A stretch of 33,032 nucleotides of DNA from an uncultured Mycoplasmatota bacterium (lineage in GTDB: Bacteria > Bacillota_I > Bacilli_A > RF39 > UBA660), in NCBI GenBank assembly GCA_948466395.1, contig CAOKAG010000013.1, positions 1 through 33,032 of the forward strand, written 5' to 3'. The notes below the pieces were generated by a model. The model saw only the letters and a list, made by a program, of their open reading frames with translations, searched no databases and had not been told where the DNA came from. Position numbers and translations under genes: made by a program. Position 1 is the first letter of the stretch. Every line of letters starts with the position of its first letter. Below are positions 21,200 through 27,756 of this stretch, piece after piece.

Positions 21200-21233
21200 A
21201 AAAAAAAATATTACTTTTCTTCCGTAATATTTT
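21200..21233 (-). terminator. Strong terminator overlapping the stop codon of the membrane-anchored beta-sandwich gene
   Basis: On the minus strand AAAATATTAC (21224-21233) pairs perfectly with GTAATATTTT (21205-21214) around a 9-base loop and runs into further T bases. The stop codon TAA (21211-21213) is inside the 3' arm, so the last codons form the hairpin. Confidence 0.75.
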
Positions 21234-22539
21234 CTTCTTTCTTCTCTTCTTTAATTGCTTTCTCTTCTAATTCTTTTTTCTTAGCATGTTTGGCTTTGGC
21301 TTTGTTGATAATTTTTTTGTATTTACTACTTTTTCGAATCAAATAAATGATGATTAAAAGGAAAAACACGACTGTTCCAGCAAAAGCAATGGCTGAATAA
21401 TAATAGGTTTTCTTTTCTTTTTCTAATGCTTCTATTTCTTCTTTATTCCAGATTTGAAAAGATTCTTCTTTAGTATCGTAACTGTAATAGTTGTATTCTC
21501 CTGTTTCTAGATTTAAAGCGTAAATGATAGCAAAGCGACTGTTCTCTTGAAATTTATAAGCGGAAACGTTTTGATCATTGATGGTCAGCGTGACTTTTTT
21601 ATAATTTTCAATTTCTTCTTTGAAATCCGTAATGTAAAGCGTTAAATTGCTGTTTTTGTACTCGTGATAGAATTGATAGCTTTGTTCTTCTTCGTTATAA
21701 ATCGCTAGAAAAATATCTCCAGAAGCATTTTTAATCCCTATTAAAGTCATTTTAGAAACATCATTATAAAATGCTGGAATATCAAACTCGTTTATTTTAA
21801 TTGTTTTTTCTTCAAATAAGTTGGGTTGGGTTAAGCTTTTAGGATTTTTAATAATCGTATATTTCTCGTTATTGATAGTCATTTCTATAGGATTTTGATC
21901 TTCGACAATGACATTGACTGTGTATTCCATCGTTTTTCCAGTTTCACTCGTTACTAGGATTTTAAATGTGTTTATGCCTTCTGTTACTTCATATTCTCCG
22001 GTTCCTGTTAATGAAGCATGTGATTCATTTACTTTCGCGTCTAATTTAATTTTGTCTACGGTTGAGGGAACTTGGACTTTATAGTTTAAGGTTTCTTTAT
22101 CAAATTTAGGACTCAGTTCATATCCTTCAACGGATAAAGATGCTAAACTGGCATCGCTTGATTTTTCACGTGGTGGCACGACTGTTGTCTTTTTGGTAAC
22201 TGAAACGTTGGTTGTTGCTCCATCTTCATTCGTTATGTCTCCTGTTGCTGTAAAAGAAATGACACCTAGGCTTGTTGCTTTACAAGTCACACTTAATGTT
22301 TTTGTCGCATTTTTTCCATTACTGGTAGCATCCGCAAAACTTGTGGTACACCCACTGGTTGACCCCGCTGAAGTTATTTTGACGTTCCAAGCGGCTGTTG
22401 CTTTTAACGTAAGGGTGGCTGTCACTGTATTTCCGTTTTCAACTGATGAGGGTGCATACATAGAGTAAGTAGCTGCGGCATGGGTAATAACAGGACATAA
22501 TGCCATTATGATTAATAGACTTACTATTTTCTTTTTCAT
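21211..22539 (-). CDS. Secreted, membrane-anchored protein with cohesin/Ig-like and cadherin-like beta-sandwich domains
   Basis: This protein of 442 residues has a signal peptide (1-22), a first beta-sandwich domain (about 23-118) whose opening TYSMYAPSSVENGNTVTATL recalls cohesin or bacterial Ig-like folds, a clear cadherin-like beta-sandwich domain of the PF12733 type (about 128-212, with LSPKFDKETLNYKVQVPS and GINTFKILVTSE), an unassigned region (213-375), one membrane helix (about 379-402) and a lysine/glutamate-rich cytoplasmic tail. Two cysteines (64, 86) fall in the first domain. It lies 8 bases after a dockerin-bearing wall hydrolase, so it could be the docking partner. Binding is a hypothesis; the cohesin label is uncertain. 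Confidence 0.75.
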   Translation of the reverse strand: MKKKIVSLLIIMALCPVITHAAATYSMYAPSSVENGNTVTATLTLKATAAWNVKITSAGSTSGCTTSFADATSNGKNATKTLSVTCKATSLGVISFTATGDITNEDGATTNVSVTKKTTVVPPREKSSDASLASLSVEGYELSPKFDKETLNYKVQVPSTVDKIKLDAKVNESHASLTGTGEYEVTEGINTFKILVTSETGKTMEYTVNVIVEDQNPIEMTINNEKYTIIKNPKSLTQPNLFEEKTIKINEFDIPAFYNDVSKMTLIGIKNASGDIFLAIYNEEEQSYQFYHEYKNSNLTLYITDFKEEIENYKKVTLTINDQNVSAYKFQENSRFAIIYALNLETGEYNYYSYDTKEESFQIWNKEEIEALEKEKKTYYYSAIAFAGTVVFFLLIIIYLIRKSSKYKKIINKAKAKHAKKKELEEKAIKEEKKEENITEEK

Positions 22540-22547
22540 TTTTACCT

Positions 22548-24278
22548 CTATTCTTGAATTATATTATTGGTTCCTAAAAGATGTTGTCTTAATTTTAGAA
22601 GATCCGCTGAGTTGACATTGTTATTCACTAATTTTGCTGCTTCTAAATACGCTCCTGATAATTTAGCGGTTCCTTGTAAATGTTTTCTCATGGCTAATAA
22701 ATCCGCTGAGTTAATCTTACCGTCTCCTGTTAAGTCTCCTAAAATAACAGCGGTGCTATTCTCTTCTTTTAAATTAAACGTTGTTCCTGTTGAAATAATG
22801 TCTGTTGTACTATTAATTGCTATCTCTTTGTTTTGAAGTTTATTTTTAAGACTAGCAATGGATTCTCCTACATTAAATCCTTTAGCAAAATTATTAGTAT
22901 TTTTAATTCCTATTGCTTCTAAGTTTGCACTTAGAGTAAGGGGTTTATCGTAGATGGTATCGTTTGCACAAAGGGTACAAAAGCCTCCACTTGCCCATTT
23001 TAATCCTTCTTTATAAGGAACACTAGCACTACTTTTAGCACCAATATTATAAAAATTAAATAAGCCAGAATACTCTATTCCACCATATTCAAATTTGTTT
23101 CCAGTGGTAGCGGCTCCTCCTCCTGTTCCTGATTCTTGACGAGCTAATGAAGCTAAGTAAAGGGCACTGACATTCGATGTTTTTCCAGCTTCAATAAAAA
23201 TTGAGGCGTAAGACTGATTGTCTAAAATAGAAATCCCACTCATAAAAGTATTATTTAAAATAGATTGAACTAAGCTTTCTGTATGATTTTCTGAATATTC
23301 AAGACTTTCAAATTGAAAAATGTACTTTTCAGTTAAAAAGTTTCTCGGATCCATATAATAAGCGGTGGCTTCAAAATTAGGATAATACCAACCTTTATCG
23401 TTCCCAAATTGAACAGGACTTCCATCATCATTTAATTCGTAACATCCATTTGGTCCTTGAATGGCTCCTACTATTTTTTCTGTATTTACAGCAAAAGTAA
23501 AATCTTCATTCGTGTTTAAAGCTTTAAATTTCCAATTCGGATGAAGGGTATGTAATCTTCGTAAGTAGGGTTTATAGGATTCTGGGAACGCTTTTATTTT
23601 TTCTTCAAAGTCAGGATCGGTTATCGCGTCTTGTCTTTCTACAGTAGTTATGTTTCCTCCTGGACGATCGTATTTTTCTTGCATGTTATTAAAAATTGGT
23701 AAACTAAATTCAAAAGGTAAATCCAAAAAACCATTTTTATTGTAAGCGTTATAGGTTGTGATTGATTCACTTGATGGCGCGGTAATATTTGCCATGTACT
23801 GATGATTGTACATATTGTTTGTACTGGGATTCACATTGTATTTTTTTAAATAACTCGTAAATTGACCTTGAGCGATATAGGAACCACTGATGTAAATTCC
23901 TCCTCCGACAATGGATTTTTTGGGACTTGTCCAAGGTCGCTGGTATACATCATGATTACCGATTTTTACTCCTGCCGCACAGACATAACCTGTATACCCT
24001 TTATAAGTCGCTTTATAAAAACCGGTTGTGCATCCTGATGTTGGAGCGGTTCTTTCTGTTCCTAACAATGTAATGATGTCTCCTGTAGAAAAATGAACTA
24101 ATTTTTGATTGTTTAACGTATCTGTTGTGGGTCTCGTTCTTAAATATTGCGTTTCATTTAAGATGGTTCCCATGATTAATTCTTCGGCATGTACGTTTGC
24201 TTTAAAAGGAAAGAGTGAAGAAAATGATAAAGCAATAATGAGATTTATATTTAAAATTTTTTTTATTGTTTTTTTCAT
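22548..24278 (-). CDS. Secreted endo-beta-N-acetylglucosaminidase with SH3 and dockerin domains
   Basis: This 576-residue wall hydrolase is probably secreted. It has a signal peptide (about 1-31, ending NVHAEE), an SH3-like domain (about 34-106, LRTRPTTDT then TGYVCAAG), an unassigned region carrying LHTLHPNWKFKALNTNEDF (242-260), and a glucosaminidase domain (about 300-470) with DPRNFLTEKYIFQFE and ARQESGTG, where Glu382 is the likely acid. The C-terminus (514-570) is a type I dockerin: the first calcium loop DLTGDGKINSAD is canonical, while the second repeat (NNNVNSADLLKLRQHL) has lost the DG positions. AGGAGGG precedes the ATG. It shares a transcript with the membrane-anchored protein downstream. 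The substrate should be the peptidoglycan glycan strand. Confidence 0.87.
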   Translation of the reverse strand: MKKTIKKILNINLIIALSFSSLFPFKANVHAEELIMGTILNETQYLRTRPTTDTLNNQKLVHFSTGDIITLLGTERTAPTSGCTTGFYKATYKGYTGYVCAAGVKIGNHDVYQRPWTSPKKSIVGGGIYISGSYIAQGQFTSYLKKYNVNPSTNNMYNHQYMANITAPSSESITTYNAYNKNGFLDLPFEFSLPIFNNMQEKYDRPGGNITTVERQDAITDPDFEEKIKAFPESYKPYLRRLHTLHPNWKFKALNTNEDFTFAVNTEKIVGAIQGPNGCYELNDDGSPVQFGNDKGWYYPNFEATAYYMDPRNFLTEKYIFQFESLEYSENHTESLVQSILNNTFMSGISILDNQSYASIFIEAGKTSNVSALYLASLARQESGTGGGAATTGNKFEYGGIEYSGLFNFYNIGAKSSASVPYKEGLKWASGGFCTLCANDTIYDKPLTLSANLEAIGIKNTNNFAKGFNVGESIASLKNKLQNKEIAINSTTDIISTGTTFNLKEENSTAVILGDLTGDGKINSADLLAMRKHLQGTAKLSGAYLEAAKLVNNNVNSADLLKLRQHLLGTNNIIQE

Positions 24279-25710: not shown

Positions 25711-27756
25711 ATGAAGGTATTATTTAGAAAATTAAAAAGGACCAATAAATTTGGGAAAGCGATTTACTTACTTCTCAACCTACTTTATATTGTTCTTTAC
25801 GTTTTATTTGTTAAGTCTATATTAAGTTTGGTAGGGATTGAAACAACGATTCGAATGGTTGTACTTGTTTTTTTCTCCCTATGGTTTTTCTTGTATTTAC
25901 TTTTTGGTTTATCCACACTTATTGTAAAAAAATATAAAAAATTTGTTTTTTTAACGATTATTAGTCTCTTGTTATGCCTTGTGATGTTGTTTTCAAGCTT
26001 AGTTATCCATAAACTTTACAGTAAAATAGAAATGTTTACCAATCAAGAATACACCGTTTATACGACCAATTTAATTAGTTTAAAAGAAACAGAATTAAAG
26101 AGTACGAGTAAAATTGGCATGATTGACAATAATGAGGATATTGAAGGTTATGTTTTAGCGAATACTTTAAAGACTAAGGAAAAGATTAAAGGTGAAATTA
26201 AATATTATGACGATTATTACATCATGTTAAATGCTTTATATAATAAAGAAATTGATGCTGTTTTTGTTTCTAGTAATTATGCGATTATTTTTGGAAGTGA
26301 AGCGGCGTTTGAACGTATTGGTGAGGAGACAAAAGTTCTTTATGAATACAGTGAAAAGTTAAAGACCAAGACGATTACTAGTAGTAATAAGAAATTAACT
26401 GAACCCTTTACTATCCTTTTAATGGGTGTTGATTCAGAGATTGATGGTTTAAATGCTAACGCGGCTTTTAATGGCGATACGTTAATGTTAATTACTTTTA
26501 ATCCGAATACGCTAACAGCTACTATGTTTAGTATTCCAAGAGATACTTATGTTCCTATTGCTTGTAATCGAAATCGAAGTCATAAAATTAATTCTTCAGC
26601 GGCTTATGGAACCGAGTGTGTTATTAATACGGTTCAAAATTTAGTGGGAATTGATATTGATTATTATGCTAAGATTAATTTTAATGGAGTTATTGATCTT
26701 GTTAATGCTTTAGGTGGCTTAGATATTGATGTCGAACCTCCTGATTATAAAAATTATATTAAGCAATATGGTGAAGGAAGACTTTGTGAAAGTAATGCCA
26801 ATCGAAGTATGAAAGATTTGGTTTGTATGAATACAGGTCCACAACATTTAAATGGAGAACAAACCCTTGCTTATGCTAGAAATAGACATGGTTATTTAGC
26901 AAGTGACTTAGCCAGAAATAAACATCAACAACAAATAGTTGAAGCGTTGTCTAAAAAGATTATGACCGTTAGTAGTTTTAGTGATTTCGAGAATTTATTA
27001 GACGTGATTGGTAAAAATATTGCTACTAATTTATCTACTACGCAACTCTTATCTTTTTATCAAACTTTAAAAAATATGTTATTTGAAAGTTTAAAAGGAA
27101 ATGATTTTATTACCATTCAAAAAACGTATTTAGAGGTTTATAATTTACCTGTTATGGTCAGTGGCATGCAACTATCTGCTTTAGGTTATTATGAAAAGAG
27201 TTTAAAGGCGATAAAAGACGCGTTGGAAGTTAATTTAGGAATTAAAAAGGAAGAAATGATTAAAACTTTTGAGTATGATTATAATGAAGTTTATGAATCT
27301 CCTGTCATTGGTAAAGGAATAAGAGGCGACAAAAATGAAACAACGGTTCCTAATTTAATTGGTAAGACAGTCAGTCAAGCGGAGGAATGGGCTAATCAAA
27401 ATCAAATTACTTTAATTAAAGAATTTGCTTGTAGTGATGGCATTCCTGGCCTTATTGGAAATCAAAATGTTTTAATTGGAACAAGTGTTAAAAGTATTAC
27501 TAGTATTACAATTACTATTAATGAAGCTTGCGAATCGAATGGACCTAATCAAAAACCTAATGAGGATGAAGATGAAAGTAATAAACCTGATATTGATTTA
27601 CCACCAGGAGGTCCAAATGATGACAAACCCGATCCTAATCCAGATGATTCAGATACAGATCAAGATAATGATAATGGAAATGAAACCGATCCTGATGATA
27701 CAGTTGATAAACCTGAAATTCCTGTTCCAGGCACTCCTACTGAGGAAGAAAGTTAA
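25711..27756 (+). CDS. LytR-CpsA-Psr (LCP) glycan ligase with PASTA-like domain and acidic tail
   Basis: This membrane protein of 681 residues should transfer lipid-linked glycans to peptidoglycan. It has three membrane helices (about 17-39, 47-72, 77-101), an extracytoplasmic domain (about 115-220) that looks like part of a solute-binding-protein fold (YYDDYYIMLNALYNKEIDAVFVS), and then the LCP catalytic domain (about 234-415). Typical LCP motifs are present: LLMGVDS, NGDTLMLI, FSIPRDTYVPI, SHKINSSAAYG, DYYAKINF, LNGEQTLAYARNRHG and DLARNKHQQ, with the phosphate-binding arginines. A single PASTA-like repeat (about 545-605, TVPNLIGKTVSQAEEWA) and an Asp/Pro-rich tail follow. Extracytoplasmic cysteines number six and fall in three near pairs (285/303, 359/372, 574/607). 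A terminator overlaps the stop codon. Confidence 0.9.
   Translation: MKVLFRKLKRTNKFGKAIYLLLNLLYIVLYVLFVKSILSLVGIETTIRMVVLVFFSLWFFLYLLFGLSTLIVKKYKKFVFLTIISLLLCLVMLFSSLVIHKLYSKIEMFTNQEYTVYTTNLISLKETELKSTSKIGMIDNNEDIEGYVLANTLKTKEKIKGEIKYYDDYYIMLNALYNKEIDAVFVSSNYAIIFGSEAAFERIGEETKVLYEYSEKLKTKTITSSNKKLTEPFTILLMGVDSEIDGLNANAAFNGDTLMLITFNPNTLTATMFSIPRDTYVPIACNRNRSHKINSSAAYGTECVINTVQNLVGIDIDYYAKINFNGVIDLVNALGGLDIDVEPPDYKNYIKQYGEGRLCESNANRSMKDLVCMNTGPQHLNGEQTLAYARNRHGYLASDLARNKHQQQIVEALSKKIMTVSSFSDFENLLDVIGKNIATNLSTTQLLSFYQTLKNMLFESLKGNDFITIQKTYLEVYNLPVMVSGMQLSALGYYEKSLKAIKDALEVNLGIKKEEMIKTFEYDYNEVYESPVIGKGIRGDKNETTVPNLIGKTVSQAEEWANQNQITLIKEFACSDGIPGLIGNQNVLIGTSVKSITSITITINEACESNGPNQKPNEDEDESNKPDIDLPPGGPNDDKPDPNPDDSDTDQDNDNGNETDPDDTVDKPEIPVPGTPTEEES

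Follow-up and report, generated by a model that had tools for sequence, protein, structure and literature searches.

Where and when autolysins cut the cell wall is a long-standing question, and most of the answers known to us involve either non-covalent wall binding or multi-pass partners. The stretch of DNA analysed here (33,032 nucleotides from an uncultured Mycoplasmatota bacterium, hereafter the window) raises this question in a particular form. A secreted enzyme of the glycoside hydrolase family 73 (GH73) glucosaminidase type ends in a dockerin, and the gene located 8 bp downstream on the same, minus strand, as given by the open reading frames (ORFs), encodes a membrane-anchored protein, hereafter the receptor. 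Is the first domain of the receptor the partner of this dockerin? As suggested by an initial annotation, such a pairing is supported by conserved adjacency, cohesin-like homology and strong co-variation, and on this basis it is quite probable that a private cohesin-dockerin pair tethers the wall hydrolase to the membrane, with a specificity proper to each pair.

According to this proposal, the dockerin would dock into the outermost, membrane-distal domain of the neighbour's product, i.e., a shortened and divergent cohesin that two further beta domains hold away from the membrane. Because its dockerin would be bound by the first domain of the receptor, the glucosaminidase would be kept at the membrane face of the wall instead of diffusing. 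The docking may depend on calcium and may influence the site where the wall is cut. The same receptor scaffold would also serve other dockerin-tagged enzymes, i.e., a GH25 lysozyme and an M6-like peptidase.

Among 118 relatives, a match to the receptor is found in 67 genomes and a match to the enzyme in 64. The two genes form 126 distinct adjacent same-strand pairs in gut Bacilli, nearly all in the family of the window and with gaps mostly of 8-20 bp; such a recurrence indicates that the gene arrangement is not due to chance. Seven of the 126 pairs are in the reverse order (receptor gene, then dockerin gene). The full-length receptor homologues of other Bacilli families adjoin a dockerin gene wherever the upstream sequence is covered. 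The pair is also present, with a gap of 10 bp, in a cultured Clostridia isolate, Vescimonas fastidiosa MM35, where the products are annotated as "dockerin type I domain-containing protein" and "cadherin-like beta sandwich domain-containing protein". The enzyme and receptor genes are one unit.

Co-variation of the dockerin and the first domain

The dockerins belong to three main motif classes, i.e., R, Q and Y, and the first domains were clustered blind to them. Cluster 2 corresponds to 55/57 R, cluster 1 to 27/27 Q and cluster 3 to 26/26 Y. With 8 clusters, the adjusted Rand index versus the dockerin is 0.88 for the first domain and 0.17 for the remaining receptor. The distances between first domains follow those between dockerins with a partial r of 0.70 (n=113; receptor core and catalytic domain controlled); for the catalytic domain, which belongs to the same chain as the dockerin, the partial r is −0.32 (others controlled). 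Within dockerin classes, the correlation for the first domain is 0.37-0.44. Moreover, profiles derived from one group of loci were used to class held-out loci. The classes of the dockerin and of the first domain are concordant in 60/60 cases within the family and, in a second held-out set mostly from other families, in 16/16 cases for the clearly classed dockerins. Since the dockerin class and the receptor-domain class switch together, each pair would have its own specificity.

It could be argued that this co-variation is a by-product of DNA exchange, i.e., that the dockerin and the first domain are swapped together without any binding. Indeed, the main gene order separates the 3' end of the dockerin from the 5' end of the receptor by about 10 bp plus the signal peptide. 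However, the correlation with the dockerin is far lower for the 65 residues that immediately precede it (r=0.37) and for the intervening signal peptide (r=0.17) than for the first domain (r=0.75), and this last value is 0.65 after controlling for the pre-dockerin sequence, the signal peptide and the core. In addition, the reverse-order operons place the two parts at opposite ends of about 4 kb, yet these parts are matched. DNA exchange is thus improbable as an explanation, and the co-variation is stronger than that given by linkage or by common descent of the remaining parts of both proteins.

The dockerin of the enzyme is of type I (PF00404 at residues 513-568, 32.4 bits for a curated cut-off of 22.9) and both of its tandem loop-helix repeats are present. 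The residues expected to bind calcium (positions 1/3/5/12) read D-T-D-D in the first loop and A-L-N-D in the second, in agreement with the initial description of a hydrolase ending in a dockerin with one canonical calcium loop. Intact calcium ligands in both loops of a type I dockerin are usual, not universal. The second loop is likewise degenerate in 48 of the 57 class R dockerins.

The genome of the window (1.36 Mb, 90% complete) contains three dockerin proteins and one Pfam cohesin (a count that the initial annotation had proposed) and no repeated-cohesin scaffoldin was found in it. The window dockerin might bind a cohesin encoded elsewhere, such as that single Pfam-level cohesin, located on contig C12 (6518-6862). 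Nevertheless, the C12 protein bears its own dockerin; it is found in 20 of the 70 searched genomes, often with weak matches only; and several pair-bearing genomes are devoid of any other Pfam cohesin. Thus, genomes G001, G004, G016, G047 and G052 have one dockerin each and no Pfam cohesin elsewhere in the genome, so that a distinct partner encoded elsewhere, against which the initial annotation had to be checked, is highly improbable. In the family of the window, a receptor or a cohesin is found within 5 kb on the same strand at 85 of the 123 Pfam dockerin places, and at 81/104 when two dockerin-rich genomes are left aside.

Descent of the first domain

Pfam Cohesin matches are obtained for 5 of 40 members of the receptor family; that of L096 (28.0 bits) is located at the first domain. 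The first domains were grouped in three types (A, B and C), the window domain being of type A. The 14 best PDB matches of the type B profile are all cohesins, while nothing useful is obtained when the type A and type C profiles are compared with PDB. The profile-profile comparison (hhalign) links the three types with probabilities of 92% (A-B), 95% (A-C) and 97% (B-C). As controls, the comparison of the first domain with the cadherin-like or third domains of the same proteins gives 0.1-0.5%, and reversed decoys give 0.5-5.5%.

The isolated first domain is modelled confidently (predicted local distance difference test, pLDDT, of 92). Its fold search gives Ig-like folds, in which complement MG domains (Z 10.9) are tied with the jelly-roll beta-sandwich of cohesins; the nearest of the latter are 2jh2 (Z 10.3 over 102/104 residues), 2w1n (Z 10.1) and 2vo8 (Z 9.6), all from Clostridium perfringens. 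The matches of relatives to Pfam Cohesin and the profile-profile links lead to the conclusion that the window first domain is related to cohesins by descent, shortened and divergent, and not a canonical cohesin. The initial annotation considered it as cohesin/immunoglobulin (Ig)-like and proposed a profile search versus cohesin families. The Ig-like character holds; the cohesin relation holds through the profiles of relatives, and a direct Pfam match is not obtained. The profile link leads to cohesin-like relatives and not to a non-cohesin Ig family. It must be noticed that some first domains are matched by the Chagasin (I42) and BatD profiles, a result that was set aside as reflecting the shared Ig-like fold; in L096, both matches are weaker than that of Cohesin.

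Several observations weigh against the proposed pairing: (i) the window first domain alone has no match to Pfam Cohesin (PF00963) and, by itself, no sequence match in PDB; (ii) complement MG domains fit its fold equally (Z 10.9 versus 10.3 for cohesin) and, because of this tie, the fold alone is not taken as a proof of cohesin; (iii) loop 2 of the window dockerin is degenerate, the calcium ligands being intact in loop 1 only; (iv) the p-values of the Mantel permutations take no account of phylogeny, and the catalytic-domain tree gives only 5 independent well-supported contrasts, all concordant, plus one without difference; (v) the 5 out-of-family dockerins of ambiguous class gave mixed matches; (vi) for 38 of the 123 dockerin places, no partner is recognised among the same-strand genes within 5 kb, and the two dockerin-rich genomes account for 15 of these.

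The enzyme, its proposed anchoring and the layout of the locus

A profile built from 19 orthologues of the enzyme matches the Atl, AtlE and SagB glucosaminidases in PDB, in two pieces and in reversed order. Both structural parts of a GH73 glucosaminidase of the SagB/Atl type are found in the enzyme (window 22977-23948), and E382 is aligned to the catalytic Glu of this type. In SagB, the R-domain is formed by both chain ends (1-71 and 187-250) around the L-domain (72-186), which bears the catalytic E121 (PMC7170848). The enzyme is a circular permutant of this arrangement and, since the C-terminal piece is moved to the front, its R-domain becomes continuous. Among the relatives of the enzyme, 78 sequences have the permuted order of the pieces and 36 the canonical one; in the catalytic-domain tree, a clade of 78 rows (Shimodaira-Hasegawa-like approximate likelihood ratio test, 95%) contains the permuted sequences inspected. 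The substrate-binding motif YA(S/T)D is absent from the enzyme, which reads HQYMAN versus HQYATD in SagB; this YMAN (residues 161-164, window 23787-23798) may correspond to a changed substrate preference. Because E382 aligns with the catalytic glutamate, a glucosaminidase activity is likely, though the substrate motif reads YMAN.

The dockerin-tagged partners of the receptor that were examined are mostly peptidoglycan hydrolases, with in addition an M6-like peptidase and one metallo-beta-lactamase-fold protein, which is in favour of the initial view of a pair unrelated to plant fibre digestion. In other Bacilli families, the partner contains a Glucosaminidase domain (PF01832) in 8/10 of the cases examined; one GH25 lysozyme and the metallo-beta-lactamase-fold protein are also found there. 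As the latter (L271:258-1478) also bears a dockerin, the receptor family is not confined to glycosidases and peptidases.

The enzyme being SagB/Atl-like, the receptor could act chiefly in regulation and less as a tether. As SpdC does for SagB, it would set the glycan cut site or free new peptidoglycan from its lipid anchor, the binding of the dockerin serving to recruit the enzyme. A Staphylococcus membrane protein binds SagB and sets the length of its products (PMC12272431), and the three ordered extracellular domains and the cytosolic tail of the receptor leave room for regulation. On the other hand, SpdC, an integral membrane protein, belongs to the CAAX protease family, while the receptor has one helix and is unrelated to it. 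Moreover, the receptor scaffold is reused with the GH25 lysozyme, the M6-like peptidase and the metallo-beta-lactamase-fold protein, and such a diversity of enzymes favours generic tethering; a regulatory role, which would be compatible with the tether, is thus conceivable and rather unlikely.

Gut and rumen communities are the origin of many pair loci, and an M6-like peptidase is among the partners, as might be expected if the unit displayed its enzymes outward, against foreign walls or host material and not against its own wall. However, the receptor is anchored by a membrane helix and not by a sortase or S-layer anchor, which would place the enzyme beneath or inside the wall, and genes of the LytR-CpsA-Psr (LCP) type, related to wall glycopolymers, are frequent neighbours of the pair. 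Outward display has therefore little probability, and a tether acting on the cell's own wall is preferred.

The features of the locus are collected in Table 1. The exported protein, with a cadherin-like domain and a single membrane helix, that the initial annotation placed 8 bases after the hydrolase is found again. Its hydropathy profile contains one transmembrane stretch apart from the signal peptide, and the first domain is all-beta in the AlphaFold2 model. The search of PDB with the whole receptor sequence gives designed proteins and weak matches only, and the matches of the full receptor model in the fold search are dominated by multi-domain beta proteins. No family name was found for the third, beta-rich region. 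This third extracellular domain, the circular permutation and two further dockerin-cohesin units of the same genome were absent from the initial annotation.

Table 1. Position of the predicted features in the window (residues are numbered in the corresponding protein).
Feature	Position	Strand	Basis
Dockerin-bearing, circularly permuted GH73-type glucosaminidase, 576 aa, secreted	22548..24278	-	ORF; PDB profile matches to Atl, AtlE and SagB glucosaminidases; partial NCBIfam SagB match
Probable signal peptide of the enzyme, residues 1 to about 32	24183..24278	-	Sequence MKKTIKKILNINLIIALSFSSLFPFKANVHA, judged by eye, no predictor
SH3-like region of the enzyme, about residues 46-104	23967..24143	-	Sub-threshold Pfam SH3_3 at 67-104; SH3_3 at 41.8 bits in relative L082
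Residues 111-207 of the enzyme, corresponding to the C-terminal piece of the SagB/Atl glucosaminidase, located at the front	23658..23948	-	Profile columns 120-187 aligned to SagB chain residues 169-232
Residues 215-434 of the enzyme, corresponding to the N-terminal part and L-domain of SagB/Atl glucosaminidase, candidate catalytic E382	22977..23636	-	Profile columns 272-438 aligned to SagB chain residues 13-167
Type I dockerin of the enzyme, residues 513-575, one intact calcium loop	22554..22742	-	Pfam PF00404; loop ligands
Membrane-anchored receptor, 442 aa	21211..22539	-	ORF; AlphaFold2 model, pLDDT 87
Receptor signal peptide, residues 1-22	22474..22539	-	Hydropathy and sequence
First domain of the receptor, residues 23-124, shortened, cohesin-related, Ig-like, proposed to bind the dockerin	22168..22473	-	Profile-profile homology, co-variation with the dockerin, fold
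Cadherin-like beta-sandwich domain, residues 132-211	21907..22146	-	Pfam PF12733, 39.9 bits
Third, membrane-proximal beta-rich region, about residues 216-365	21445..21894	-	AlphaFold2 secondary structure, high pLDDT; conserved in the receptor alignment
Single transmembrane helix, residues 383-401	21337..21393	-	Hydropathy 2.83; helix in the AlphaFold2 model
Lys/Glu-rich cytosolic tail, residues 402-442	21214..21336	-	Sequence
LCP wall-glycopolymer ligase with PASTA domain, divergently oriented to the pair	25711..27756	+	Pfam; homologues in 71/126 pair loci

Known systems and other dockerin genes

Cohesins and dockerins outside cellulosomes are already known, and Peer et al. are said to have surveyed non-cellulosomal cohesin- and dockerin-like modules in 2009. 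No description of wall hydrolases paired with a membrane cohesin of their own was found in the literature searched, in which the coverage of subscription papers is small.

Three known systems can be compared with that of the window. The toxin and glycosidase complexes of C. perfringens, based on cohesin (X82) and dockerin, are likewise non-cellulosomal and single-cohesin, and contain the cohesin folds nearest to the window domain; five single-cohesin proteins and their dockerin partners are described (PMC12997984). In C. perfringens, however, the cohesin is carried by a secreted glycosidase and joins enzymes, whereas in the window its counterpart belongs to a non-catalytic membrane receptor located beside one dockerin-tagged wall enzyme. 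The scaffoldins of cellulosomes, amylosomes and mucinolysomes also place enzymes at the cell surface by cohesin-dockerin pairing, that of Limousia (cSca5) fixing its complex to the wall via a sortase motif (PMC12997984). Scaffoldins are multi-cohesin and directed to external polymers, while in the window system a single receptor domain and a membrane helix are associated mostly with peptidoglycan hydrolases. Finally, the SagB-SpdC peptidoglycan release complex of Staphylococcus aureus also associates a GH73 glucosaminidase with a dedicated membrane partner (PMC12272431). On the contrary, SpdC is a CAAX-family integral membrane protein, the complex has no dockerin and SagB is unpermuted, whereas the window partner crosses the membrane with one helix and bears its beta domains outside the cell.

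More generally, the balance is slightly in favour of a previously undescribed class of private membrane-anchored cohesin receptors in gut Bacilli and some Clostridia, each encoded next to a single dockerin-tagged wall enzyme with which it would co-evolve. Wall maintenance, and not fibre digestion, would then be the main use of cohesin-dockerin pairing in this class, which would include a shortened type of cohesin that goes with one-calcium dockerins as well as a circularly permuted glucosaminidase. If this is true, one cohesin receptor per enzyme would be a simple and testable means of positioning for bacteria that have a wall and a small genome, and the role of cohesin-dockerin pairing would be widened beyond cellulosomes. 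The many natural pairs that co-vary offer a ready supply of orthogonal protein connectors, and the cultured V. fastidiosa opens the way to experiments.

The two further dockerin-cohesin units of the window genome are located on other contigs. On contig C16 (L085:5969-10046), a second receptor paralogue with another type of first domain (C) overlaps a dockerin gene and is one of the seven pairs in the reverse gene order; its partner is a 950-residue dockerin protein with an M6-like peptidase domain. On contig C12 (L084:6431-15037), a single chain of 2868 residues contains an M26-type N-terminal region, a cohesin, two probable membrane helices and a dockerin, and long frames resembling it are found in several relatives. 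A self-clasping of the cohesin and the dockerin of this protein is possible.

Other arrangements are observed among the relatives. At L145:268-7988, a protein of 1846 residues with 16 tandem cadherin-like domains and a weak dockerin-like C-terminus (below the Pfam Dockerin threshold) adjoins a 721-residue protein in which four cadherin-like domains accompany a cohesin match. Genomes G041 and G065 have 10 and 12 dockerin matches, respectively, most of them without a neighbouring receptor, and this richness hints at a different, scaffold-like system.

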